Position numbers and translations under genes: made by a program. Source: Candidatus Aquiluna sp. UB-MaderosW2red (GTDB lineage Bacteria; Actinomycetota; Actinomycetes; Actinomycetales; Microbacteriaceae). From it: a stretch of DNA of 64,000 bases. Numbering within the stretch: the first letter of the stretch is position 1; every line of letters begins with the position of its first letter. The stretch lies in contig NZ_LT627734.1 of the NCBI RefSeq assembly GCF_900100865.1, positions 1,550,001-1,614,000 of the forward strand, written 5' to 3'. The notes beneath the pieces are model-generated. The model ran no database searches, was not told the DNA's origin, and saw only the letters and a program-made list of their open reading frames with translations. Positions 47,616 to 64,000 of the stretch are shown here, in pieces.

Positions 47616-48812
47616 CTAAGAGAATAGCGCCTGCGCGATAACCTCAGCCTGAGTTACTCCAGCTGCGATTGCAAACTCGGCAGAACCAATTGGAATGGTC
47701 CACTCATTTAACAGATCCAGTTCATCAAGGCGCCTTTGAATTGGAACAAATTGCCCGTAGAGGTCCTTTATGTACGCATTCCACAACAGCCCCACATTCG
47801 GGCTTCCCTGCGAAGAAACCGGAGCCTCATAAGAAAAAGGCCGGCGGAATATTCGCTCGTTAGGTCTTGCTGGGGCAGCTCTTCTGATATGAGCAAACTC
47901 CGGAATCACAGTTAGGCCATTTGGATGCCTGGCTGCCAGATCCGGTGTATCAGACTCTATTGAACCGGTTAGCGGCGCGCCAGAACCGAGCTTTCTGCCG
48001 ATGACCTCTTCTTTAGCGGGGGTGCCAAGTTGATCCCAAGTGTCTAGGTTCATGGCGATCCTGCGGAAAACCATCTGAGTGCCACCTTGTATCCAGGTGG
48101 GTCCATCATCAATCCAGACCACATCGTCAAAGTCGCTTGATCCCAGCGCAGGGTTCGCGGTTCCATCGACCTGACCCATCAGGTTTCGGTGCGTCACCCC
48201 AGATTTGAGCATGCCCGGCGTGTGGGTGAAGCCAGCCTGGCTGTATTTCACAGTTGCAAAGGGCATCGAGTCGCGAATCAGGCCACGGGTGCCGTGAGAT
48301 AGCACGATTGGGTCATCGGCAGCGATGTGAATCAACACATCACCCGCCGAGAATTCTGGCTGGAGCTGATCCACTTTGAATCGGGGCAGTTCTTTAAAAC
48401 CGACCGGCATCAATGACTCAAGACCGAGCTTTTGAAAAAGACTTGGACCGAAACCAACATAAGCCGAGAATCTGGCAGCCCCAATCGCCAACTCAGGGGC
48501 CGGGTCTGCCAAAACCGCTTGCCCCAAAGACAGCCTAAGAATGTCGTCGGTGAGCAAACCCATCCAGCGCAGCATCGATGCCTTGTCGACACCCGGTTTG
48601 ATGTCAAAGGCAACCATGTTGGTGACGGCTTGCATATCTAGCTCGATGCCCATCTGGTGCTCACCGTAAAACTCGAGCGAGCGGGTGGCGGTTGCAGTTT
48701 CTTGAGCCTGAGTGCTAAAAAAGGAGCTGGCAGAGGCCCCACCGGCAACACCGAGTGCGGTGCCGGCAGCTGTCGCCGCGGTGCCGGTTAGAAAGCCTCT
48801 TCTTGAAACCAA
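47616..48812 (-). CDS. Dye-decolourising (DyP-type) peroxidase with Tat signal
   Basis: 398 residues. The twin-arginine signal is MVSRRGFLTGTAATAAGTALG, with an A-x-A type region after it, so it is exported folded, with haem in place. GQVDGTANP holds the GxxDG motif of the DyP family (about residue 210), and HIRRAAPARPNERIFRR carries the proximal haem His region. The family includes EfeB and Streptomyces DtpA. It lies one base downstream of a PCuAC lipoprotein gene, resembling the Streptomyces copper-linked DtpA cluster rather than a full efeUOB operon, because no efeU or efeO is seen here. Confidence 0.93.
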   Translation of the reverse strand: MVSRRGFLTGTAATAAGTALGVAGGASASSFFSTQAQETATATRSLEFYGEHQMGIELDMQAVTNMVAFDIKPGVDKASMLRWMGLLTDDILRLSLGQAVLADPAPELAIGAARFSAYVGFGPSLFQKLGLESLMPVGFKELPRFKVDQLQPEFSAGDVLIHIAADDPIVLSHGTRGLIRDSMPFATVKYSQAGFTHTPGMLKSGVTHRNLMGQVDGTANPALGSSDFDDVVWIDDGPTWIQGGTQMVFRRIAMNLDTWDQLGTPAKEEVIGRKLGSGAPLTGSIESDTPDLAARHPNGLTVIPEFAHIRRAAPARPNERIFRRPFSYEAPVSSQGSPNVGLLWNAYIKDLYGQFVPIQRRLDELDLLNEWTIPIGSAEFAIAAGVTQAEVIAQALFS

Positions 48813-48813
48813 G

Positions 48814-49338
48814 CTAGTTGCTCGTTTCCATATCGGTCATGTCCATGTCAGTTTTACCCATGTCAGTGCTGTGGTATTCCTCGTCGCCACCGACCGATGG
48901 CTTAGCGGTCATGCCATCAACAACCACATCTGCGTTGCCATCAAATTCAAAGGTGACGGTGATTTGGTCGCCGGCCAGTACATCCGAAACCAGATCCATA
49001 AGCATTAGGTGGTTTCCACCAGGCTCTAACAGGACGGTTTGACCGGCCGGGATTAAGAGCCCCCCATCAATCTTTTGCATCTTCATCTCACCGTCCATCA
49101 TCATCATCTGGTGCACCTCAACAATGTTTGCCACCGAAGTTGTTCCGCCGATTAGTGTTATGTCCCGATCTGAGTTATTGGTGAGTGTTCCATAGACAGC
49201 ACTCATACCACCGACCATCGACATTTCTGAGGATTTCACCCACAGCTCCCCTAGTTCCATGCCGTCCTCGCTGTCGCCAATCGGAGCGCAGCCTGCTAAA
49301 ACCAACAGTGAGGCAATTAAAACAGCAATCTTGCGCAT
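48814..49338 (-). CDS. PCuAC-type copper chaperone lipoprotein
   Basis: 174 residues. The lipoprotein signal ends at LAGCAP (Cys17). The domain carries VEVHQMMMMDGEMKMQ and GGNHLMLMDL, giving H-x10-M-x22-H-x-M, one residue longer than the canonical H-x10-M-x21-H-x-M copper(I) site. A Met/Asp/His-rich tail (STDMGKTDMDMTDMETSN) may bind extra metal. It is expected to deliver copper outside the membrane, for example to cytochrome oxidase or to the DyP/other enzymes. It precedes the DyP gene by one base. Confidence 0.92.
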   Translation of the reverse strand: MRKIAVLIASLLVLAGCAPIGDSEDGMELGELWVKSSEMSMVGGMSAVYGTLTNNSDRDITLIGGTTSVANIVEVHQMMMMDGEMKMQKIDGGLLIPAGQTVLLEPGGNHLMLMDLVSDVLAGDQITVTFEFDGNADVVVDGMTAKPSVGGDEEYHSTDMGKTDMDMTDMETSN

Positions 49339-49393
49339 CCGAATCCAATCTTTGTGGGTGGGTACCGGCAGAATTTGTGTACCTTAAACATAA

Positions 49394-49412
49394 ATTCTAC
49401 GCTACGTAGAAT
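49394..49412. promoter_or_regulatory. Dyad in the promoter of the PCuAC-DyP operon
   Basis: ATTCTACG-CTA-CGTAGAAT, an 8-bp perfect inverted repeat, lies 56 bp upstream of the PCuAC start. Read on the minus strand, TAGAAT in its downstream arm is a good -10, so a protein bound here would repress. A copper-responsive regulator is likely from the context but is not identified. Confidence 0.55.
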
Positions 49413-49473
49413 GTCGCTTGTGCTCCACTTCGCAAAACTTATTGCGACACGCGGGTTAAAGCAGGTGTCTAAA

Positions 49474-49563
49474 GTTCAAGTAGTGGTTTAGTGTTCAAGA
49501 AATAACTAAATAAGAGAATTTTCTAGAGTTTTATCACTACATGTAGTGGTTTAGTGCTATATT
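49474..49563 (+). promoter_or_regulatory. NrdR-like boxes and promoter of nrdHIEF
   Basis: The 323-bp gap between the PCuAC gene and nrdH holds two related sites. The sequence GTAGTGGTTTAGTG occurs exactly at 49480-49493 and 49543-49556, 63 bp apart, i.e. six helical turns. The downstream copy belongs to a perfect palindrome, CACTACATGTAGTG (49535-49548), which resembles the actinobacterial NrdR box. TATATT at 49558-49563 is a fitting -10, so the palindrome covers the -35 region. NrdR represses ribonucleotide reductase genes when dATP is high. nrdR itself is not in the window. Confidence 0.7.
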
Positions 49564-49661
49564 AGTAAGTCCTCAGTTAGCGAGTTTTTCTCTAAAAATT
49601 GCACCAAAACAGAGGTTTTTAGCCTCATCCAGCAGCCAAAACGATTTATCAAGGAGTACCA

Positions 49662-49886
49662 ATGTCGGTCACCGTCTACACACTTCCATCCTGCGTTCAA
49701 TGCGATAGCACCAAGCGCATGTTGCAGCGCAACCAGATCGAGTATTCGGAAGTTGACATGAGCCAGGATCCAGTGGCTCTAGAGATGGTGAAGACCCTCG
49801 GTTACACCGCAGCACCGGTAGTTGTTTCAGGCCAAGAGCACTGGAGCGGTTTCCGGATGGACAAAATCCAAGCAATCAGCGCCTAA
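49662..49886 (+). CDS. nrdH: NrdH glutaredoxin-like electron donor
   Basis: 74 residues. It has a thioredoxin fold with the redox motif CVQC (Cys11 and Cys14) and the C-terminal WSGFRMDKI typical of NrdH. It reduces the class Ib ribonucleotide reductase NrdE. AAGGAG precedes the ATG by five bases. First gene of the operon; nrdI follows 14 bp after the stop. Confidence 0.96.
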   Translation: MSVTVYTLPSCVQCDSTKRMLQRNQIEYSEVDMSQDPVALEMVKTLGYTAAPVVVSGQEHWSGFRMDKIQAISA

Positions 49887-49900
49887 GAAAAGGTTTTGAG

Positions 49901-50289
49901 ATGTTCGACGTTGTTTATTTCTCGAGTGTCTCGGAAAACACCAAACGCTTCGTAGACAAAATCGACAGCAATGCGATTCGGATCCCACTAAAGACCGATG
50001 AAGCAGCCGAGTTTGTGCACGATCGGGATAGCGTTTTAGTCGTCCCCACCTACGGTGGCGGGAACGACTCGAGCACTGTTCCAAAACAGGTAATCAAGTT
50101 TTTAAATAATCCGATAAACCGGAAACACATCAAGGCTGTCATATCTGGGGGAAACACCAATTTTGGTTCCCACTTTTGTAAAGCCGGAGACATCGTTGCC
50201 TCCAAGCTGGGAGTACCAGTGTTATACAGATTCGAAATAACCGGCACGCCGGAAGATGTAGTAGAAGTTAAAGAAAGGCTGGCCACCCT

Positions 50290-50308
<19 letters not shown>
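49901..50308 (+). CDS. nrdI: NrdI flavodoxin-like protein
   Basis: 135 residues. It has a flavodoxin fold with [17 protein letters not shown] at the N-terminus (the FMN phosphate loop), VVPTYGGGN and [17 protein letters not shown] near the isoalloxazine. NrdI supplies the oxidant that assembles the dimanganese-tyrosyl radical of NrdF. The stop lies 19 bp inside nrdE, or upstream of it if nrdE uses its later ATG. Confidence 0.95.
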
Positions 50309-53450
<3,142 letters not shown>

Positions 53451-53459
53451 GGAGGAATC

Positions 53460-53510
53460 ATGGATTGCAATTGCTCTAAAGACAGCTGCGGCTGTGGCAC
53501 CAAGCACTAG
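53460..53510 (+). CDS. Tiny Cys-rich peptide gene after nrdF
   Basis: A 16-residue open frame, MDCNCSKDSCGCGTKH, with four Cys (two C-x-C pairs), one His and two Asp. It is preceded by TAAGGAGGAATC, a near-perfect Shine-Dalgarno (AAGGAGG) five bases before the ATG, overlapping the nrdF stop. A strong terminator starts 16 bp after its stop, so it closes the nrdHIEF operon. The composition resembles a small metal-binding or thiol peptide. I know no family for it; the ribosome site and position are what support it as a gene. Confidence 0.7.
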   Translation: MDCNCSKDSCGCGTKH

Positions 53511-53525
53511 CTAAAGCTTTATCAA

Positions 53526-53560
53526 AAAATGCCGGGCAAAGATAATTTGCCCGGCATTTT
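53526..53560 (+). terminator. Rho-independent terminator of the nrd operon
   Basis: A perfect 15-bp stem, AAAATGCCGGGCAAA (53526-53540) pairing with TTTGCCCGGCATTTT (53546-53560), with a 5-nt loop. The TTTT tail at its end (53557-53560) supports termination on the plus strand. It lies 16 bp after the small peptide gene. Confidence 0.9.
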
Positions 53561-53867
53561 CTGCACCTGAACATGGACGATGAATTTTTTGTCGCAGCAA
53601 AACTGGGGAATTTAAGAATCACTGTAGAAGGGGCTTGCCAAAGGCAATACTCTTAGGGCCGAATTCTTGTTCCAATTAGCGTGAATGCCAGGCCAGCGTT
53701 TCGTCAAGGTTTGCAACATTTCTGATTAGCTCTTCGCCTGAGTCCTCAGTAGCTGGAGAATGTGGATTGAAAAGCTCTCAGGAAGTCTAGGAGTCTAGTC
53801 ATGACAGAAGCACTGAACCGTCGAAGTTTTGGGTTTGCACAGCACGAATCCCATTAGCCCTGAGCGA
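53561..53867. other. Intergenic stretch between nrd terminator and the surface-protein genes
   Basis: About 307 bp between the nrd terminator and the stop of the convergent surface-protein fragment. I see no open frame with a ribosome site, no tRNA and no palindrome that stands out. The part just before 53867 may contain the 3' untranslated end of the minus-strand gene. Base composition looks like the flanks. Confidence 0.6.
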
Positions 53868-54743
53868 CTAGGCGAGCGTGCTATCCGTGACAACTGAAAC
53901 GATCTTGCGCTTCCGCATCACGATGGTGAGAGCCGCACCAAATGTCAGAGATAAAGCCAAAAAGCCAACAATCAGTAGCCAGTTGATACCTCCAGAATTC
54001 TCAGCCGTAGCAGGCAAATCTTCGTCAACTGATGAGTCTGTTCCGTCATCGCGAGGAGTGTCCAGGGCATCCTCCGGCGCATTTGGTGAGACCGGATTTG
54101 GATCGTAGTCATTCGGGATGCCATCGCCGTCGATGTCTGGGTCAACGGCATTCGGACGCCCATCGCCGTCGATGTCTGGGTCAACGGCATTCGGACGCCC
54201 ATCACCGTCAATATCCGCATCTAGGTTGTCAGGGACCCTATCGCCATCTTGGTCTCCAGGAAGCGAAGGTTGGCCTGGTTCGACCGGTTGGTGAACTAGG
54301 TCCTCGTTTACTGGACTACCTGCAACTCGCAGGGCATCCTGAACGTTCAGCTTTCCAAATTCGGAATAAACAACGACATCGTATCTGCCATCGGCTAGGC
54401 CAAATGGAATCTTCATGGCAAGCTCGGTTGCCGAGTAGATTACAAACTCAACTTCCTTTCCGCCCATCTGCATACGATCAATCATGTTGAGTTTCAAGCC
54501 AGTAACGGTCACAATCTGACCGGTGGCAGCAGTGGTTGGGTTGAACTTAGCCAAAATTGGACCTGGGTACTGGTAGTTGACCCCGGTCTGGGGGTTTGGG
54601 GCTTCAGGAGTAGTGAAGGTCTTCACATTACGCTGGCGTGCACCAATCTCGTTCACTGCCTCGACTGCGACGGTGTAGGTGGTGCTCCTGGAGAGAATGG
54701 CAAAATCAGGCCTGCAAGGCTCTTTCCTTGGCGCCTGATCCAT
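53868..54743 (-). pseudogene. Truncated cell-surface protein: FnIII end, IPT-like domain, thrombospondin-3 repeats, LPxT-like anchor
   Basis: 291 residues with no signal peptide. The start (residues about 17-50, TYTVAVEAVNEIGARQRNVKTFTTP) is the last part of a fibronectin type III domain. An IPT/TIG-like domain follows (about 60-145), then calcium-binding thrombospondin type 3 repeats (about 165-215) with DIDGDGRPNAVDP present twice in identical 39-bp copies at 54122-54199. The C-terminus has LPATAENSGG, a TM segment and the tail RKRK, as in sortase substrates, but the fifth residue is Ala rather than Gly. Upstream of 54743 no frame continues. It looks like the 3' remnant of a larger gene homologous to its neighbour, though an intact small gene cannot be excluded. 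Confidence 0.7.
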
Positions 54744-54890
54744 CTCTGGATACGCAACTGCCCTCCTTTGGGTATGAATCGCCCAATTGAACTGTGATAA
54801 ATCTAAAGGAGCCCAAAATCGGGCATCGAAGAGCGTTCGGTTAACCGAAGTTTTTAGAGTAAATTGTGGCGCTGATGAGAGCCGTCTCGG

Positions 54891-57800
54891 CTAGCCGGCT
54901 ATTCGCTCAGAACGCTTTCTTGCGCGGACAAAAATGACCAAAGCAAGCGCGATCAAAATTAGTGCTATCCAGAGCCAGGCAAAGTCAGTGCCTTGACGCT
55001 CCTCACCGGAATCTGAACCCCCTGAGCCCGGCTCTGATTCTGGACCTGAGACCCCAGAGTCACTACCTTCATCAGGCTTAGTAACACTTCCATCTGGATC
55101 GCCTGCAGAACCGTCACCGTTTGAACCGTCAGTGCCGGAGTTGCTAGAGCCTGAGCCGTTAGAACCAGAGCCTTCAGTACCAGAATCTCCAGATCCGATC
55201 CCAGAACCAGAGCCTGAGTCAGGATCGGTTTCTGGCTGGGTTTCTGGGTCAGTGACTACAACTGCAATTGCGCTAACCGTGAGTGCTTCTTGGATTGTTA
55301 GGCGGCCATAGCTTGAGTGCAGCACTAGGTCGTATACGCCGTCGGCAATGTTTGCAGGCAGAATAAAGGTGATGCTGTCCTGCGTTGCACTGAACTGCAT
55401 CTCGCGACCAGCAATTTCGATCTTGGTGACGGTTCCAAGCTTCACACCAATTCCCTTGACGGTGGAACCGGGTCTGGCTGGGTTTGGGGTCACCTTTGTG
55501 ATCATTGGACCATCAAAGCTCGAGTTGGTTTGTGGCGGTGCAGGGATAGTTATTGAGTAGGTGGCAACCTGACCAAAACCAAGTCCGTTCTCCGCAGAGA
55601 CCGCAAACTCATAGGTTTGCCCAGGTAGAACCTCGGTGTATTCACATAGCCTGTCAGCACTTGCAGGGCAGTCAGCTGGCTCAGCACCATTCACCAATAC
55701 TTTGTAGCCGAGAAGGCTAGAACCACCATTGAATACTGGCTCTGACCAACCAAGAACTAGCTCGCCCTCGAGCTCGACTAGCTGCAACCTGGTTGGTGCT
55801 GATGGTGTTGTCAGGCTCTGCTGCATACCAACCGTGGTGTTCTCTTCGCCCTCAGTCTGTGACTCTGAGGTGATAGTGACAACCTTGAACTCATAGGCAG
55901 GCGAGTAGTCGATAGCGGTTGGTGCTGTCATCGCGCGGAAAACAGATGTTCTGAAACTCTGTGCCTGAACGATAGAGGTGCTAAAGCTTGCCGAGGTGCT
56001 CATTGAAGTTGCGGTGGGTGTTGCTGGCTCATCGCCGCCCAGTGGCCAGACATAGACCTCATAGCCCTCAAAGTTGCCATCAAAAGCGGTTGGCTCGTCC
56101 CAGTTCAAAGTCAAGGTGTTAGGACTTGGGGCTGCTGCCAGGTTGGTCACACCAAGCGGAGCGTTTGAGGTTCTAATTGGCAAGGAGCTCTCTGAGTAGA
56201 CACCGATACCGGCGACAGTAATTGCTGCGACTTTGACGGTGTAGGTATCAATAGGCAGACCAACCAGGGTGCAGTTAATAGGTGCTGCCGAAACAACACA
56301 GCCCGCGTTGATGAAGTTGTCACCATCAGCGTTTGTGACCACCATTCGGTAAGCGGTGATGGTTGCGCCACCGTTGTAGCCAGGTGGGTTAAACGACGCG
56401 GTGATGTTTTGCTTGCCCGCGGAGATTGAAACCAGGTGCGGAGCACCGGCTAGATCAGCTGAGATCACAAACATTTGGCGGACACTTGTGGCAGCAAGGT
56501 ACTCGAGGTTACCCGGCTGCGAGGCTGTGATCTCACAGCCTCCGGCAGCCAAGAGCGTGATGAAGCCCCGAGTGTTGACAGCACACTTTGGAGCGCCCAC
56601 AATATTCGTCACGCTGTATTGAACTTGCAAACCAGAGGATGCGGTGGCAGCTGCGAAGAATCCTGGGTCACCATAGGTCTTTTGTGCAATTGGGCTAAAG
56701 GCAATGGTCTGGTTTCTTGCACTCACAACGATTCGCTGCACCGCAGAGGCTTGCATGAACTGACCATCACCAGCTTGTGTTGCAGTGATATCACAGACAC
56801 CTGAGGCCAAGAACTTGACCTTGGTTGGGTCAGTGTCCCAGGCGCAAATTATTCCAAGCCCCGAGGTGATTGTGTACTGGACAGCCAAGCCACTACTTGC
56901 AACCGCAACTGGGGTGAAGAGCTGCTGAGGCAAAGGCGTTGCGGGTATCACAGATGTGAAGTTGACCCTCTGGTCAGCCTTAGTGAAGGTCACCGTTTGC
57001 TCTGGAGAAATGGCAACCAGGTAGTTTGTTGAGGTCAACTTTGTTGCACTCACACCACAGCTACCGGTGGCATTTGCACGCAGCTTATTACCGTCGACAA
57101 TTCTGCAAAGAGAATCGTTAGTGGTGACCGCAAAGGTGACCAATCCATCACCAGAACCACCTGATGTGAACAGGGTGATATCGATCATGTTTGCACTGGT
57201 CGCACTAGCCATACGAAGTGGGTTTTGCAAGATCTTGTTGATTGTCAAAACCATCGGGTCAGAGTACGCAATCAGGTAATTGTTATCTCCCAACTTGCGC
57301 GCGGTGACCTCACAGAAGCTACCGGCTTGACCTGGAATCAAGGTGGTGCCGATGATGCGGCAATCGCCTTGAACCAAGAACGAAAGCTGGCCAGTTCCAG
57401 AGCCGCCGGCTGCAGCCGGGGTCATGGTGCTCCAAAAGTCAAGGTTATTTGCACTCGTGATAACGAGAGCCTTTTGCTGAGCCTTGGAGATTGACAACGT
57501 TGCTGTGGCGGTATTCGCAAAGTAGAACGGAACCCCAGGAACTGTGACAGTAACCACACAGTCACCAACACCGCGAACAAACACTTGACCATTTGGTTCG
57601 TTGGTTTGTGGATCAAGAACCAGCTCACAAATACTCGATAGTGATGAGGTCGTGTATCTAGGTGTTGCGGGTGAGTCGGTAGCAAAGGTTGGCGTGACTA
57701 TTTCGCCATTGACAAAGCTCCTTGCTTGATAGCGAATGCTAATCGCCGCTGTCTTTGAAAGCGTGTAGCCAACGGTCTCATCAACACTGAATGCATAGCC

Positions 57801-60800
57801 AAGGTGAGAGCTACTGAATCGGAGCTTGTAGACCGCGCCTGGTGAACCAGTAACCGCAATGTTGCTAAAGGTCACCACACCCTGATTAGCAGTTGTGCTG
57901 CCACCAGAAACAACAGAACCCGAAACATCGTTGAATACCGCTGCGGTCACAACCGACTGGTTGTCCCAGTCAACGTTGTTGTTGAAGCGGTCCTTGACCT
58001 GCAGCACCGGCTGACCAGTCAGCACCTCACCAACAAGACCACCGGTTGAATCCTGAGTCAAGACAAGTTGGTAGGGGTTGGCAGCGATCAGCGAGAAGGC
58101 GGCCGATGCTGCGGCTGTATAGCTAGGCCCAGTAACTGGAGTCGCAGTAAACAGGAGCTTGTATTCAAACCCTGGTGTGCCAACAACTCGCAAGCCAGTG
58201 AAGCTAGCGACACCTTCTGAAACCACCATCGAAGGAGTGACGGTCTCATCAAGTGAGTTGACGAATCTCGCGTTGCCGTCGGTAACCGCGAAGCTGACCG
58301 CTACAACCGTGGTTGAGTCATCAACTGCCCGGTTACCCTCGGCATCCAGCAGCTCAAGCTCCGGCATTGTGGTTAGTAGATCTCCAGTCTTGGAGGCGGC
58401 AGGATCTTGCAGGTATGCAAAGCCATTTGCCAAACCATTGGTGACACTAAAAGCAGCAGATGTGGCAGGAGTCAAACCTTCAGCACTAAAGCCAAGTGTG
58501 TAGATGGCAAGCGGTGTGCCGCTAACGCTCAAACCTGCAAATGTCGCAGCTCCCTGGACGGAAGTGGCCGAGAGTGTTGCGGGGGCAGCTGCTGTTAGCG
58601 TGCCCCCACTACCGGAATCAATTTGAATCGAAACCACGGTAGAGGAGTCTGAAAGAACGCGGTTGTTGAACCTGTCAAGAACATGGACAACAGGTTGGGT
58701 GGGCAATAAGTCACCGGTTCTTGCACCCACTGGCTGAGTGGCCATGACGAGCTTTGCCGCCTCAGCGGCGAGAACATCAAAGCTTTGGGAAGTTGCAGAA
58801 AAGAGCGTTCCTGAGCTAAAGACAAACTGCGTTGTGGCACCGGGGGTTGCCACAACACCAAGGTACTCAAAACTTGCAAGTCCATTGCTGACTGGTGCAA
58901 CCTGAGCTGCGGGGTTTGCAACACCTGAAACCAGAATGCTTGAACCAACAGATGATGTTGCAACCTCGACAGTGCCGACATAGTTGGTGACCCGGTTTTG
59001 GAAGCGGTCCCTGATCTCAACAACAGGCTGTTGCAGCAGGTTGTTTCCGGTTATACCGGCTTGACAAACAGATGCGACCTCAACCCCCGCACAAGGCTTT
59101 GTCACAACAGCAACGGAGTAAGGATCATTGAAGGTCAGCTTGAAGGCCGAGGACTCCGGTGAGGTGATTGTCACCTGAGGGCTCGTGAGCTGGCTCGTGA
59201 AGGTGAGCTTCTGGTCGACCTGAGGCAGCGCAATCACTCTCAGGTTTTGCAGTTGAGCAATTCCGTTTATAAAAACTGCCTGGTTGTGCTGCAGGGTGTT
59301 TTGATGAACTGCGACATCGGCCTGACCGTCACCGGTTGTAACGGTCGCGGTGACGATGTCACCGTTTAGCTCAGTCGCAGGATTACCGTCAAAGTCCAAA
59401 GCCCTGACAATCGGAGTCTGTTCCAGCCTGTCACCGGTCTTGGTTATGACACCATCTGAAATGTAGGTAACGGGCTGGGTTGTGATCTCCAGTTGCGTGG
59501 CATCGCCGTGGCGCACTTGAAGCGCTGCACTTTGAGCAAACTGCAAAGAACCGGAGTTGAACTTGAGAGCATAATCTTGCAGTGGCCTTACAACCATTGC
59601 TAGTCCGCTAAATGTTGCAACTCCATTTACCGCTTGCTTTGAAGCAGAGACGAGTCGGTCTCTCGCATCAAGTGTTGCCAAGAGGCTTGCGGTAACAGTT
59701 GCACTTGAATCAAGAACCACGTTTTGCCAGTTGTCCACGACCTCAATCACCGGCTGGGTTGCTAAGTCGTCGCCAGTCTTAGTTAACTGACCTGAGGCGA
59801 TCGATAGTGGCGCCTGGGCAAGCCTCAGGCCTGCAGCAAAGCCGTAGCTGACCTGAACGTTTTGCTGCAAAGTCGTGGCCACATTTGGCGCCTCTGGAAC
59901 CTCAAAAGTCAGGGTGTAGTTGGTGCCAACTGTTCCACCCTGGCTCAAACCGGTGAAGGTCGCGCGACCTGCAACCGCATTCTTATTCGCACCTGAAACA
60001 GCGCCACCTGAGGTGCCAACACGCACCGGCAGGGTGGCTCCAGCGCCGGTTTCCACGCGGTTGTTGTAGCGGTCGCGAATCTCGATGATCGGCTGCTGTT
60101 CAAAAGGCTCTGATGCTCGACCATCCGCAGCAGGCTGCAACAAGGAAAGCTGGAACGCATCGTTGTGGGTCACATTTAGTGACTGTGAAGTAACGGTTGC
60201 AGAACCAAAACTAAACACCAACTCGTGGTTCAGTGCTGGGTTGCCGTTTTGGGCCGGAGTTCCAAACAACTTGACTCCAGCGAACTGAGCAGAGCCATTT
60301 TCCAGCAAGGCAGTGGTGACGCCTTCGGACAAAGAGCCCGTATTAGTGGCCGAAACTGTGACTGTGCCAGCGGTTGTAGTTGCTAGATAACCATCCTGGT
60401 CAAATACAGAGACCCGAGGCTGGGCAGCCAACAGCTCACCGGTCTTTGTCAAAACAGACCCGGTGAGGGTACTCGGCTGTGTGTCAATAGCGATCGATGT
60501 TGCAACACCAGGCAAAACCTCAAAGTCATTTGAGTTCTGCTCATAGCCGTTGAGGTCTACCTCTAGGTAGTAATCCACACCAGGTGCAACTGCGTAACCG
60601 AGCCCTGTGAATAGCACCACGCCGGCGTTGGCAGTTGCGGAGATGGTCGTGACTGGGGGTTGGCCTGTGGTTGCAAGAGCAAGGGAGTCAGTGTTGGTGA
60701 ACAGCCTGACCAATACTTGCGAGCTGCTGTCGGTCTCGACCTTGTTGGCGAACTGGTCCCAAAGCTCGATCTCCACAACAGGAGAGAAAGTTTGTCTTGT

Positions 60801-63800
60801 GATAAGGTTCGTCGGATTCTGAACAATTCTGAACAAGGTGGCCTGACCAGCTGTTACGTCTATCTCTTGGCTCTTGGTGATAAATGTGCCAGTTGGGTAT
60901 TCAGTGCTAAACACAAGTGTCAGACCCTCAGCGGCCGCACCGCTAATCCCAAGACCCGAGGCCGTGAAGTTTGCAACACCGTTGACGGCACCCTTGGTTG
61001 GCAAGCCAACCAAGTCCCTGCCTGCAACACTTGCAGTGACAACTAGCTGGCTATCGGACACGAGGTTTGCAGCACTGTCACGGATCTCAATAATCGGCTG
61101 ACCGCCAAATGCCAATCCCGCTCTGGCAACAGTTGCCGGGGTGGTGATTGCAAGCTGAGTTGGCGAACCGAAGGTCAGGGGAATTGCAGCCGAAACTACA
61201 CTGAAGCTTGTTGCACCAGAGGTTGCAGTGAAGCGCAACTGGTAACTGGCTGCAGGGGCCTTTAGCACTAGGCCTGCAAACACAACGTTTGCAGAGTTGT
61301 TGGCCAGAGTCTGCGAGGTGTTGGCTGTTGCCAAGACATTGGCGCTGTTTGAGCTAATCACAGTTGCTGTGACTGCAAATCTTGGACCGGTTGTCGCAGG
61401 ATTGCCGAACTGGTCCCGAATCTCAAAACTTGGCGCAGGGCTAATGCTGATCTCGTTGCGCATTGCGGTTGGCTCACTTGATAGCCAAACAATCTGAGAC
61501 GCAGCTGCGTGAGTGATTGTGAAGGTGTCGCTCAATTCGCTGATGCCACCGAGTGCAAATAAGACCTTGCGATTACCTGCGGAGGTGAAGGTCATGTCTT
61601 CAAATGTGACTACACCGGCAGTGGCAGCAACAGCAGCCTTGCTGCTGTCAATCACGGTTGTGCCATCTGTGGCAACAAGGGTGGGCTTAATGGTTGACGT
61701 GCTGTCAGAAAGAACAGTGTTTAGCCATTGGTCACGAATGGATACTTTTATATCAAGTGCAAAGTCTTCACCAGCGATGATTGCCGCCGGTTGCTCCGTG
61801 ACCAAGAGGTCGTATGGATTACCTGCCAACAAGGTAACCGACTCTTGGGCAGCCGTGAGCGATGTCAGCTCCGCTGGACCAAACACCTGGTAGTTCAACT
61901 GATACCCGGCTGCAGTGCCAGATACACGCAAGGTTTCAAAAGTAGCAAGGCCTACTGAGGCTTGACCAGTCAATGTGCCGCTGATGGTCGCTCCAGAGCC
62001 AGAGATCGACGCAATCACATTCAAGGAGGCGGCCGTGCCCGTTGTGACACGGTTGTCGTCTTGGTCCAAAACTTCAATTTGAGGCTGGGTAACAAAGTCA
62101 ATACCAGCCCTCACTCCAGCTGTTGCCCTAGCAACTGACAGCTTCACGGCAGCTCCGTGAAGCAAGGTGATGTCTTGGGTTGCGGAGGTGCGGCCGGCTG
62201 ACGATGCAGTGATTGTGTAATCACCAACAGTTCCTTGAAGACCAAGGCCTGAGAAGTTAGCAACACCCTCGTTGGCTGCAGTCAGGGTAAGGGTTGTGAT
62301 GCCAGTGATCAAGGCGACCCGGGTCTGACCAGCAGGTGGTGCAATTGAAAGTGCAACATCTCCTGTGAAGTTAGTAACAGTGTTGCCGGAGATGTCTTGG
62401 ACTGTGACCTTGGGCTGGGTCGAGAAGTTGGTTCTGTTCACAAAACCAGCAGCGGGTGTGGTGATGGCAAGTTTGGTTGCGGTCCCGAAGCTGATAGAGA
62501 TGTTGTTTTCGTCTTCAATTGCTTCAGGCGAAGTGATAGTCGCGGTGATGGTGTAGCTGCCGATGGTGTCGGTGAGCTTTAGGCCTTTGCCCGAGAAGTT
62601 TGCGATTCCAGCAACCGCAGGCATTGATACTGTGCCAGAAAGATCAGCTGTTGAACTAATCGTCACGGTTTGGGTGGACTGGGTTCCATCGGTGACTCGG
62701 TTTAGGTCCCGGTCCAGTATCTCAACTGATGGCTGAGTGGCAAAGACAGTGTCGTTGGTGACAGTCGCAGGGGATGTCAGAACTACTGAGTGGGCGGCTC
62801 CGTGAAGCAATGTGATGTCTTGGGTGGCGGAGGTGCGGCCGGCTGACGATGCAGTGATTGTGTAGCTGCCGATGGTTCCCTGAATACCAAGACCCGAGAA
62901 GGTTGCAACACCTAAGTCACCAGCGACCAAAGTCAGATCAATGTCGCCTGTGATGCTTGCGCCGGAGCCAATTGAAAGTGCAACATCTCCTGTGAAGTTA
63001 GTAACAGTGTTGCCGGAGATGTCTTGGACTGTGACCTTGGGCTGGGTCGAGAAGTTGGTTCTGTTCACAAAACCTGCAGCGGGTGTGGTGATGGCAAGTT
63101 TGGTTGCGGTCCCGAAGCTGATAGAGATGTTGTTTTCGTCTTCAATTGCTTCAGGCGAAGTGATAGTCGCGGTGATGGTGTAGCTGCCGATGGTGTCGGT
63201 GAGCTTTAGGCCTTTGCCCGAGAAGTTTGCGATTCCAGCAACCGCAGGCATTGATACTGTGCCAGAAAGATCAGCTGTTGAACTAATCGTCACGGTTTGG
63301 GTGGACTGGGTTCCATCGGTGACTCGGTTTAGGTCCCGGTCCAGTATCTCAACTGATGGCTGAGTGGCAAAGACAGTGTTGTTAGTGACAGTTGAAGGTG
63401 AAGTGAGAACTACTGAGTGGGCAGCGCCGTGAGTCAATGTGATGTCTTGGGTGGCGGAGGTGCGGCCGGCTGACGATGCAGTGATTGTGTAGCTGCCGAT
63501 GGTTCCCTGAATACCAAGACCCGAGAAGGTTGCAACACCTAAGTCACCAGCGACCAAAGTCAGATCAATGTCGCCTGTGATGCTTGCGCCGGAGCCAATT
63601 GAAAGTGCAACATCTCCTGTGAAGTTAGTAACAGTGTTGCCGGAGATGTCTTGGACTGTGACCTTGGGCTGGGTCGAGAAGTTGGTGCGGTTGACAAAGC
63701 CTGCGGCAGCATGGGTGATTGCGAGCTTGGTTGCCGAACCGAATGTAACTGTGGTGGCTTCAGTGTCAGCGGCGCTTGGGTCAGAGATAGTTGCAGTGAC

Positions 63801-64000
63801 ACTTCTTGAGCCAATGGTTGACGTGAGCTTGATGCCAGTGAAGTCAGCAACACCTCCAAGGGCAGGCTGGGTCAAGGTGCCAGAGATAGTTGCGTTTGAA
63901 GAACTCAAGACAACATCCTGGGTTGATTGAGTTCCTGTTGAAACTAGGTTGCCATCAGCATCCAGGATCCTTGCCTGAGGTTGAACTCCAAAGACTGCAT
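54891..64000 (-). CDS. Giant repeat-rich membrane-anchored surface protein (5' end beyond right edge)
   Basis: An open frame from the stop at 54891 to the window edge, at least 3035 residues; it reads straight past 63908 (a TTG) with no start, so the real start is outside. About 20 Ig-like beta-rich units of ~100 residues (TQPxVEIxDxxxNxV, then GxAxFxGLxxxG) occupy roughly residues 1-2050 counted from 63908. MBG-like units (about 2050-2480) with SISKAQQK, fibronectin type III domains (about 2490-2790), an IPT domain (about 2800-2860), a Ser/Gly/Asp-rich linker, one TM and RARKRSERIAG follow. No LPxTG. Likely an adhesin or surface-layer protein displayed outside the membrane. Confidence 0.85.
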   Translation of the reverse strand, partial: AVFGVQPQARILDADGNLVSTGTQSTQDVVLSSSNATISGTLTQPALGGVADFTGIKLTSTIGSRSVTATISDPSAADTEATTVTFGSATKLAITHAAAGFVNRTNFSTQPKVTVQDISGNTVTNFTGDVALSIGSGASITGDIDLTLVAGDLGVATFSGLGIQGTIGSYTITASSAGRTSATQDITLTHGAAHSVVLTSPSTVTNNTVFATQPSVEILDRDLNRVTDGTQSTQTVTISSTADLSGTVSMPAVAGIANFSGKGLKLTDTIGSYTITATITSPEAIEDENNISISFGTATKLAITTPAAGFVNRTNFSTQPKVTVQDISGNTVTNFTGDVALSIGSGASITGDIDLTLVAGDLGVATFSGLGIQGTIGSYTITASSAGRTSATQDITLLHGAAHSVVLTSPATVTNDTVFATQPSVEILDRDLNRVTDGTQSTQTVTISSTADLSGTVSMPAVAGIANFSGKGLKLTDTIGSYTITATITSPEAIEDENNISISFGTATKLAITTPAAGFVNRTNFSTQPKVTVQDISGNTVTNFTGDVALSIAPPAGQTRVALITGITTLTLTAANEGVANFSGLGLQGTVGDYTITASSAGRTSATQDITLLHGAAVKLSVARATAGVRAGIDFVTQPQIEVLDQDDNRVTTGTAASLNVIASISGSGATISGTLTGQASVGLATFETLRVSGTAAGYQLNYQVFGPAELTSLTAAQESVTLLAGNPYDLLVTEQPAAIIAGEDFALDIKVSIRDQWLNTVLSDSTSTIKPTLVATDGTTVIDSSKAAVAATAGVVTFEDMTFTSAGNRKVLFALGGISELSDTFTITHAAASQIVWLSSEPTAMRNEISISPAPSFEIRDQFGNPATTGPRFAVTATVISSNSANVLATANTSQTLANNSANVVFAGLVLKAPAASYQLRFTATSGATSFSVVSAAIPLTFGSPTQLAITTPATVARAGLAFGGQPIIEIRDSAANLVSDSQLVVTASVAGRDLVGLPTKGAVNGVANFTASGLGISGAAAEGLTLVFSTEYPTGTFITKSQEIDVTAGQATLFRIVQNPTNLITRQTFSPVVEIELWDQFANKVETDSSSQVLVRLFTNTDSLALATTGQPPVTTISATANAGVVLFTGLGYAVAPGVDYYLEVDLNGYEQNSNDFEVLPGVATSIAIDTQPSTLTGSVLTKTGELLAAQPRVSVFDQDGYLATTTAGTVTVSATNTGSLSEGVTTALLENGSAQFAGVKLFGTPAQNGNPALNHELVFSFGSATVTSQSLNVTHNDAFQLSLLQPAADGRASEPFEQQPIIEIRDRYNNRVETGAGATLPVRVGTSGGAVSGANKNAVAGRATFTGLSQGGTVGTNYTLTFEVPEAPNVATTLQQNVQVSYGFAAGLRLAQAPLSIASGQLTKTGDDLATQPVIEVVDNWQNVVLDSSATVTASLLATLDARDRLVSASKQAVNGVATFSGLAMVVRPLQDYALKFNSGSLQFAQSAALQVRHGDATQLEITTQPVTYISDGVITKTGDRLEQTPIVRALDFDGNPATELNGDIVTATVTTGDGQADVAVHQNTLQHNQAVFINGIAQLQNLRVIALPQVDQKLTFTSQLTSPQVTITSPESSAFKLTFNDPYSVAVVTKPCAGVEVASVCQAGITGNNLLQQPVVEIRDRFQNRVTNYVGTVEVATSSVGSSILVSGVANPAAQVAPVSNGLASFEYLGVVATPGATTQFVFSSGTLFSATSQSFDVLAAEAAKLVMATQPVGARTGDLLPTQPVVHVLDRFNNRVLSDSSTVVSIQIDSGSGGTLTAAAPATLSATSVQGAATFAGLSVSGTPLAIYTLGFSAEGLTPATSAAFSVTNGLANGFAYLQDPAASKTGDLLTTMPELELLDAEGNRAVDDSTTVVAVSFAVTDGNARFVNSLDETVTPSMVVSEGVASFTGLRVVGTPGFEYKLLFTATPVTGPSYTAAASAAFSLIAANPYQLVLTQDSTGGLVGEVLTGQPVLQVKDRFNNNVDWDNQSVVTAAVFNDVSGSVVSGGSTTANQGVVTFSNIAVTGSPGAVYKLRFSSSHLGYAFSVDETVGYTLSKTAAISIRYQARSFVNGEIVTPTFATDSPATPRYTTSSLSSICELVLDPQTNEPNGQVFVRGVGDCVVTVTVPGVPFYFANTATATLSISKAQQKALVITSANNLDFWSTMTPAAAGGSGTGQLSFLVQGDCRIIGTTLIPGQAGSFCEVTARKLGDNNYLIAYSDPMVLTINKILQNPLRMASATSANMIDITLFTSGGSGDGLVTFAVTTNDSLCRIVDGNKLRANATGSCGVSATKLTSTNYLVAISPEQTVTFTKADQRVNFTSVIPATPLPQQLFTPVAVASSGLAVQYTITSGLGIICAWDTDPTKVKFLASGVCDITATQAGDGQFMQASAVQRIVVSARNQTIAFSPIAQKTYGDPGFFAAATASSGLQVQYSVTNIVGAPKCAVNTRGFITLLAAGGCEITASQPGNLEYLAATSVRQMFVISADLAGAPHLVSISAGKQNITASFNPPGYNGGATITAYRMVVTNADGDNFINAGCVVSAAPINCTLVGLPIDTYTVKVAAITVAGIGVYSESSLPIRTSNAPLGVTNLAAAPSPNTLTLNWDEPTAFDGNFEGYEVYVWPLGGDEPATPTATSMSTSASFSTSIVQAQSFRTSVFRAMTAPTAIDYSPAYEFKVVTITSESQTEGEENTTVGMQQSLTTPSAPTRLQLVELEGELVLGWSEPVFNGGSSLLGYKVLVNGAEPADCPASADRLCEYTEVLPGQTYEFAVSAENGLGFGQVATYSITIPAPPQTNSSFDGPMITKVTPNPARPGSTVKGIGVKLGTVTKIEIAGREMQFSATQDSITFILPANIADGVYDLVLHSSYGRLTIQEALTVSAIAVVVTDPETQPETDPDSGSGSGIGSGDSGTEGSGSNGSGSSNSGTDGSNGDGSAGDPDGSVTKPDEGSDSGVSGPESEPGSGGSDSGEERQGTDFAWLWIALILIALALVIFVRARKRSERIAG
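62347..64000 (-). repeat. Near-identical 627-bp tandem repeats in the giant gene
   Basis: The segment beginning GAAAGTGCAACATCTCC occurs at 62347, 62974 and 63601, exactly 627 bp (209 codons) apart. Long runs of several hundred bases between the copies differ at only a few sites, while patches such as 62751-62800 against 63378-63427 differ more. Each unit codes two Ig-like domains. The pattern means recent duplication or gene conversion; the third copy is cut by the edge. Confidence 0.9.

Follow-up and report, generated by a model that had tools for sequence, protein, structure and literature searches.

A 16-codon cysteine-rich gene behind nrdF in Aquiluna, a possible metal guard for class Ib ribonucleotide reductase

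Class Ib ribonucleotide reductases are used by many bacteria. To our knowledge, how cells load manganese, and not zinc, copper or iron, into these enzymes is still an open question. According to the available portions of one source, class Ib NrdF uses manganese together with NrdI, manganese is its physiological metal, and no dedicated metal guard for NrdF is named in those portions (PMC8463856). In Candidatus Aquiluna sp. UB-MaderosW2red, whose genome consists of one contig of 1,663,804 bases, the 64,000-nucleotide stretch of DNA analysed here (the window) carries a tiny cysteine-rich frame directly behind nrdF. Is this frame a gene, and could it have to do with the metal of the reductase? Genes of 16 codons are readily skipped by gene finders, and comparison between relatives is a way in which they can be established. 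The locus is of interest as a tiny, chemically synthesisable candidate metal guard of NrdF in streamlined aquatic bacteria, and as a case of nrd genes tied to metal import across a lineage.

The nrd genes lie on the forward strand in the order nrdH (49662–49886, a glutaredoxin-like reductant; TIGR02194 above cut-off, PF00462), nrdI (49901–50308, the flavodoxin that activates the dimanganese cofactor; TIGR00333 above cut-off, PF07972), nrdE (50290–52467, the class Ib large subunit; TIGR04170 above cut-off) and nrdF (52488–53450, the class Ib small subunit; TIGR04171 above cut-off, PF00268). The window's nrdE is the only PF02867 match of its genome. The same is true of nrdE in each of the 19 Aquiluna genomes (of 22) that have such a match, and in 13 of 13 genomes of good quality. 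Aquiluna genomes thus seem to rely on class Ib as their only ribonucleotide reductase of class I or II.

Behind the TAA stop codon of nrdF (53448–53450) come the bases GGAGG (53451–53455), and the resulting Shine-Dalgarno sequence AAGGAGG (53449–53455, + strand) overlaps the stop. The frame itself (53460–53510, + strand) begins with ATG at 53460, ends with TAG at 53508–53510 and translates into MDCNCSKDSCGCGTKH, with the cysteine arrangement CxC-x4-CxC; the 16-codon frame with two C-x-C pairs that the original prediction had claimed is present as described. The same prediction had called its ribosome site the strongest-looking one noticed in the window. By duplex energy (−11.1 kcal/mol) this is nearly so, the value being equalled or exceeded by one of the 45 window ORFs of at least 150 amino acids when every ORF is assigned its best early start. 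Counting the peptide frame, the window holds two ATG frames of 8–30 residues with an equally strong site and three ATG frames of 10–30 residues with at least four cysteines.

The frame is almost certainly a genuine micro-protein gene, and the comparative evidence would be best explained if it were translated, behind nrdF, from a strong ribosome site of its own. Relatives were examined for a lack of conservation of the peptide and of its ribosome site, and the opposite was found. A peptide directly behind nrdF occurs in 23 genomes, which is beyond chance. Its cysteine spacing is CxC-x3/4-CxC, and all four cysteines are invariant among the 23 peptides (C3, C5, C10 and C12 in alignment A1 with its 13 rows, and likewise in the remaining rows). 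An AGGA core precedes the ATG in 23 of 23 loci, and the ATG stands 9–13 nt beyond the nrdF stop.

The pattern of substitution is that of coding DNA. Parsimony on the nrdF tree, with 22 of the 23 sequences (L136, whose contig holds 20 nrdF residues, was omitted), gave 86 changes in 15 codons, distributed as 17, 25 and 44 over codon positions 1, 2 and 3 (one-sided p = 5e-4 against one third). Cysteine codons changed at the third base only (0, 0 and 10 changes), while the non-cysteine codons (17, 25 and 34) give a weaker coding signal. Residue changes were inferred 27 times in total; the cysteines alone are strictly held and the other residues are looser. The peptide gene also diverges less than the four-fold sites of nrdF in 223 of 223 pairs (mean 0.23 vs 0.58; pairs with a four-fold divergence above 0.2, 8 close pairs of 231 being omitted), a comparison that, like the substitution count, assumes independent changes and may carry noise from assembly errors. 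Length differences are whole codons that spare the cysteines, giving products of 15–16 residues (in L003 and L039, where an extra in-frame ATG lies two codons upstream, the conserved start was used). The codon-position pattern, the low divergence relative to four-fold sites and the whole-codon length changes together argue that the frame is a translated and selected peptide. Read-through or extension of nrdF was rejected, because the distance from the nrdF stop to the ATG is 9, 10, 12 or 13 nt depending on the genome and so breaks any fixed relation between the two frames.

The peptide is narrowly distributed. In Aquiluna, 20 of the 22 genomes searched have NrdF, and 19 of these 20 carry the peptide behind nrdF, with 15–16 residues, the same four cysteines, a start 9–12 nt beyond the nrdF stop and a hairpin thereafter; the exception, G013, has the hairpin and lacks the peptide. 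The conservation expected in other Microbacteriaceae extends to G144, which belongs to a neighbouring genus, and to 3 of the 21 Rhodoluna genomes with a readable nrdF 3′ end (G303, G362 and G787), but not to the 24 loci from other genera of the family, which were among the 30 NrdF loci that scored best in a draw of 150 family genomes and in which no peptide directly follows nrdF. Family genomes beyond these 30 loci were covered by profile search only, and three Rhodoluna genomes that match nrdF but in which its 3′ end is missing (G809, G835 and G793) were left out of the tally of neighbouring genes.

A profile of 13 peptides (A1) gave matches of E 1e-4 or better in 11 of the 398 family genomes searched, every one of them behind nrdF. 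In 35 more family genomes the values were weaker (0.009 or worse), and the 13 of these matches that were inspected look like frames that arose by chance or like parts of other frames. At the level of the order, the profile gave, besides the window's own peptide, one weak and partial match among 396 genomes (E 0.005), and at the level of the class the window's own was the sole match among 394 at E 0.001. A pattern scan of 84,980 species, which demands close spelling and which looser relatives would escape, returned 36 stretches, 21 of them directly behind an nrdF 3′ end and 15 elsewhere. By record title, the 21 belong to Aquiluna, Rhodoluna, Microbacteriaceae, Micrococcales, Actinomycetota and one Auritidibacter (a metagenome-assembled genome, MAG); the peptide of Aquiluna strain IMCC13023 reads MDCNCSKDSCNCNGKH. 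The 15 others comprise a 12-residue frame, a 21-residue frame and 13 longer ones (35–105 residues). Neither the profile nor the pattern search found a convincing copy away from nrdF. Among the loci L091, L097, L100, L102, L107 and L112, and L092, L095 and L104, none of which has nrdF beside it, the scan picked up a haloarchaeal protein of 90–91 residues that starts MDCDCQ..HCGC and a Desulfobacula frame of 37 residues that starts MGCNCWMMP.

The genes that follow the peptide point to metal import. A ZIP importer gene comes next at 19 of the 23 peptide loci and an NRAMP importer gene at one (G166); of the remaining loci, G152 has ZIP after one inserted gene, the window has neither, and G153 is cut by the contig end. 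At 19 loci without the peptide (18 Rhodoluna, 1 Aquiluna), ZIP was found within about 1.5 kb in 2, NRAMP in 9 and neither in 8. Where an importer is next, the ratio of ZIP to NRAMP is thus 19:1 with the peptide versus 2:9 without it (Fisher p = 2.5e-5, uncorrected for kinship; NRAMP was confirmed by Pfam in four of the nine loci and identified by tblastn in the others). The association with ZIP may reflect inheritance from one ancestor. Genus-wide, ZIP occurs in 18 of 22 Aquiluna genomes and NRAMP in 1 of 22. In nine Rhodoluna genomes without the peptide (L006, L119, L120, L124, L126 and L128–L131), an MntH-type NRAMP gene is next behind nrdF, with almost no gap in several of them, which links class Ib reductase to metal import there by another route.

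The window's own genome departs from the ZIP arrangement. A whole-genome search found neither ZIP nor NRAMP, and no decayed ZIP was recovered behind the window's hairpin (best E 0.36). The genome encodes a Mn/Zn/Fe-type ABC importer (substrate-binding protein, ATPase and permease), for which the closest names in NCBIfam are Mn/Fe and Zn types among others, each below its curated cut-off, and two further PF01297 proteins besides. The high-scoring PF01297 type of this importer occurs otherwise only in G161, which shares the ABC importer. ZIP occurs without the peptide in G013 and G222, and the peptide occurs without ZIP in the window, so that neither requires the other. The ZIP protein of G013 is a PF02535 match and scores above the cut-off for ZupT.

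Between the peptide and its neighbour stands a terminator-like hairpin (53526–53560, + strand, about −24 kcal/mol; fold z −3.9 for 53445–53570). The operon terminator predicted right after the frame would correspond to this hairpin, but its T-run is short (TTTTCT) and it is missing from the list of a terminator scan. That the peptide closes the operon applies to the window's genome, but not to most peptide-bearing relatives, in which a same-strand importer gene lies beyond the hairpin. Peptides end 13–21 nt before the GC core of the hairpin, and across relatives the core lies 13–21 nt beyond the preceding stop codon. The distance from the hairpin to the ZIP start is about 16–45 nt and 62 nt in one locus, with ZIP starts chosen by script and some placed too far in.

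Tentatively, the peptide is read here as a possible trans-acting metal guard or buffer, co-expressed with NrdF for the assembly of its cofactor. The 15–16-residue product would be released, and its four thiolates would hold a soft metal ion (Zn or Cu(I)); such binding is proposed on the ground that paired C-x-C thiolates prefer Zn or Cu(I) to Mn. The peptide would be produced at the same time as the class Ib reductase and, in most of the relatives that carry it, probably also alongside a broad-range ZIP importer. It would capture stray Zn or Cu during NrdF synthesis and metal import, so that the NrdF site stays available to Mn (or Fe). Mn(II) binds thiolates poorly, and the peptide is therefore unlikely to be a Mn carrier itself. 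ZIP proteins are often broad-range importers, and the association with ZIP rather than NRAMP would fit a Zn sponge beside a less selective importer. The link to the metal supply of NrdF that had been proposed from position gains from this neighbourhood, with ZIP next in 19 of 23 loci, NRAMP in one, and nrdE as the only class I/II large subunit found; it is kept here as a suggestion.

A more specific form of the metal-guard reading, which is doubtful though worth stating, would make the peptide a new kind of reductase accessory: a free four-cysteine peptide of 15–16 residues whose gene follows those of the class Ib enzyme and which might shield the manganese site of NrdF from Zn or Cu admitted by an unselective neighbouring ZIP. 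If the guard reading is true, the peptide would be among the smallest conserved proteins. A counterpoint to the guard reading as a whole is that the 24 family loci outside the three genera have class Ib genes without the peptide.

In its CxC pairs, its high cysteine fraction (4 of 16) and its expected binding of soft metals, the peptide resembles metallothioneins. Known metallothioneins differ in being longer and in having more cysteines, and no metallothionein sequence match appeared up to E 10 in a profile search of PDB chain sequences. MntS is the closest precedent in function, and CruR and CutF are the closest in regulation.

The alternative with most in its favour, an unlikely one on present evidence, is a cis-acting leader: translation of the cysteine-rich frame would respond to metal (or to charged tRNA-Cys), and where the ribosome stands would determine read-through of the hairpin into ZIP, as in CruR and CutF. 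The order peptide, hairpin, ZIP agrees with this, the short gap between hairpin and ZIP leaves little space for a separate promoter, and a ribosome on the peptide stop could reach the hairpin, given the distance to its core. Leader proteins that sense metal through cysteine motifs exist and, in the portions of the sources at hand, the CruR and CutF frames likewise carry a cysteine metal motif and lie ahead of a metal gene, with a terminator or stem-loop downstream of the frame (PMC9426467, PMC9973294). The same portions describe frames that are longer, stand at the head of an operon and carry a C-terminal stalling or stalling-like motif (PMC9426467, PMC9973294), whereas the present peptide has 15–16 residues, stands behind nrdF and is kept without a downstream importer. 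No C-terminal stalling motif (RAPP or a proline-rich end) occurs in any of the 23 peptides, which contain no proline at all.

Further observations weigh against a leader. A nascent product of 15–16 residues is too short to emerge from the ribosome tunnel and would stay within it. In a search for pairing between the coding stretch and the 5′ arm of the hairpin, 0 of 23 loci fell below p 0.1 (mean z +0.26 vs shuffles), which leaves a base-paired transcription attenuator unsupported. In the two ZIP loci that lack the peptide, the hairpin follows nrdF at a similar distance (16–17 nt). Moreover, NRAMP takes the place of ZIP in G166, and ZIP is displaced in G152, interrupted in G161 and absent from the window's genome, yet all four keep an intact peptide, which argues against a mere ZIP leader. 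In G161 (L044; L098 is a public copy of the same record), the ZIP gene has an in-frame stop after codon 39, which in a MAG may be a sequencing error. In the window's lineage, slow decay of a former leader after the loss of ZIP may also account for a peptide without ZIP.

Improbable, by comparison with the metal guard, is a small protein that, by direct binding, would alter the assembly or activity of NrdF, NrdI or the importer, much as MntS alters Mn traffic, with the cysteines perhaps holding a structural metal. Its position and the selection on its coding sequence are compatible with this, but the non-cysteine residues are few and partly variable. The precedent comes from E. coli MntS, a protein of 42 residues that, in the accessible parts of the source, is a small protein of manganese economy tied to NrdEF and aids NrdEF activation when Mn is scarce (PMC4361602). 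MntS is longer than the peptide, and the two are likened by function, not by sequence. Two further differences appear in the same parts of the source: MntS is induced together with the importer MntH, and it was not seen to act in vitro as a chaperone for a Mn enzyme (PMC4361602).

A thiol-disulfide carrier is a decidedly improbable reading, in which the CxC pairs would shuttle electrons from NrdH or another donor to the C-terminal cysteine pair of NrdE, or would buffer thiols near the enzyme. CxC peptides are capable of disulfide exchange, all copies found lie behind nrdF, NrdE ends in ENCVSCML and NrdH has CVQC, but the adjacent metal importer is left unexplained and NrdH fills the reductant role in class Ib systems that have no peptide. 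Hardly credible, finally, is a non-functional chance frame in DNA retained for something else, such as an RNA element or terminator spacing: 16 codons are very short, the Aquiluna relative G013 lacks the peptide and the coding signal is weaker outside the cysteine codons, but the cysteines are invariant while third bases vary freely, length changes are in frame, start, stop and Shine-Dalgarno sequence are kept in 23 genomes, and no known RNA family was matched in 48500–55000 at Rfam gathering thresholds.

No description of the peptide was found among the matches listed for the open-licence literature. In the available portions of a Luna-1 comparison, manganese, ribonucleotide and metal are absent as word starts (PMC12422013).

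The surroundings of the operon show several other features. A gene for a PCu(A)C copper chaperone (48814–49338, − strand) adjoins nrdH in divergent orientation. Upstream of nrdH, at about 49500–49560 in the window, there is a palindrome like ACTACATGTAGTG, which we take to be NrdR-box-like, together with a second long block, both apparently strongly conserved in the upstream stretches of Aquiluna. On the other side, 54891–63908 (− strand) encodes a giant protein of about 3005 residues that is repetitive and likely to have a membrane anchor at its C terminus, and some relatives also have long repetitive minus-strand frames beyond ZIP. In the nrdF tree, the window's gene (52488–53450) falls beside its counterparts from Rhodoluna G303 and G362, which may point to either transfer of the operon or misassignment of the genus.
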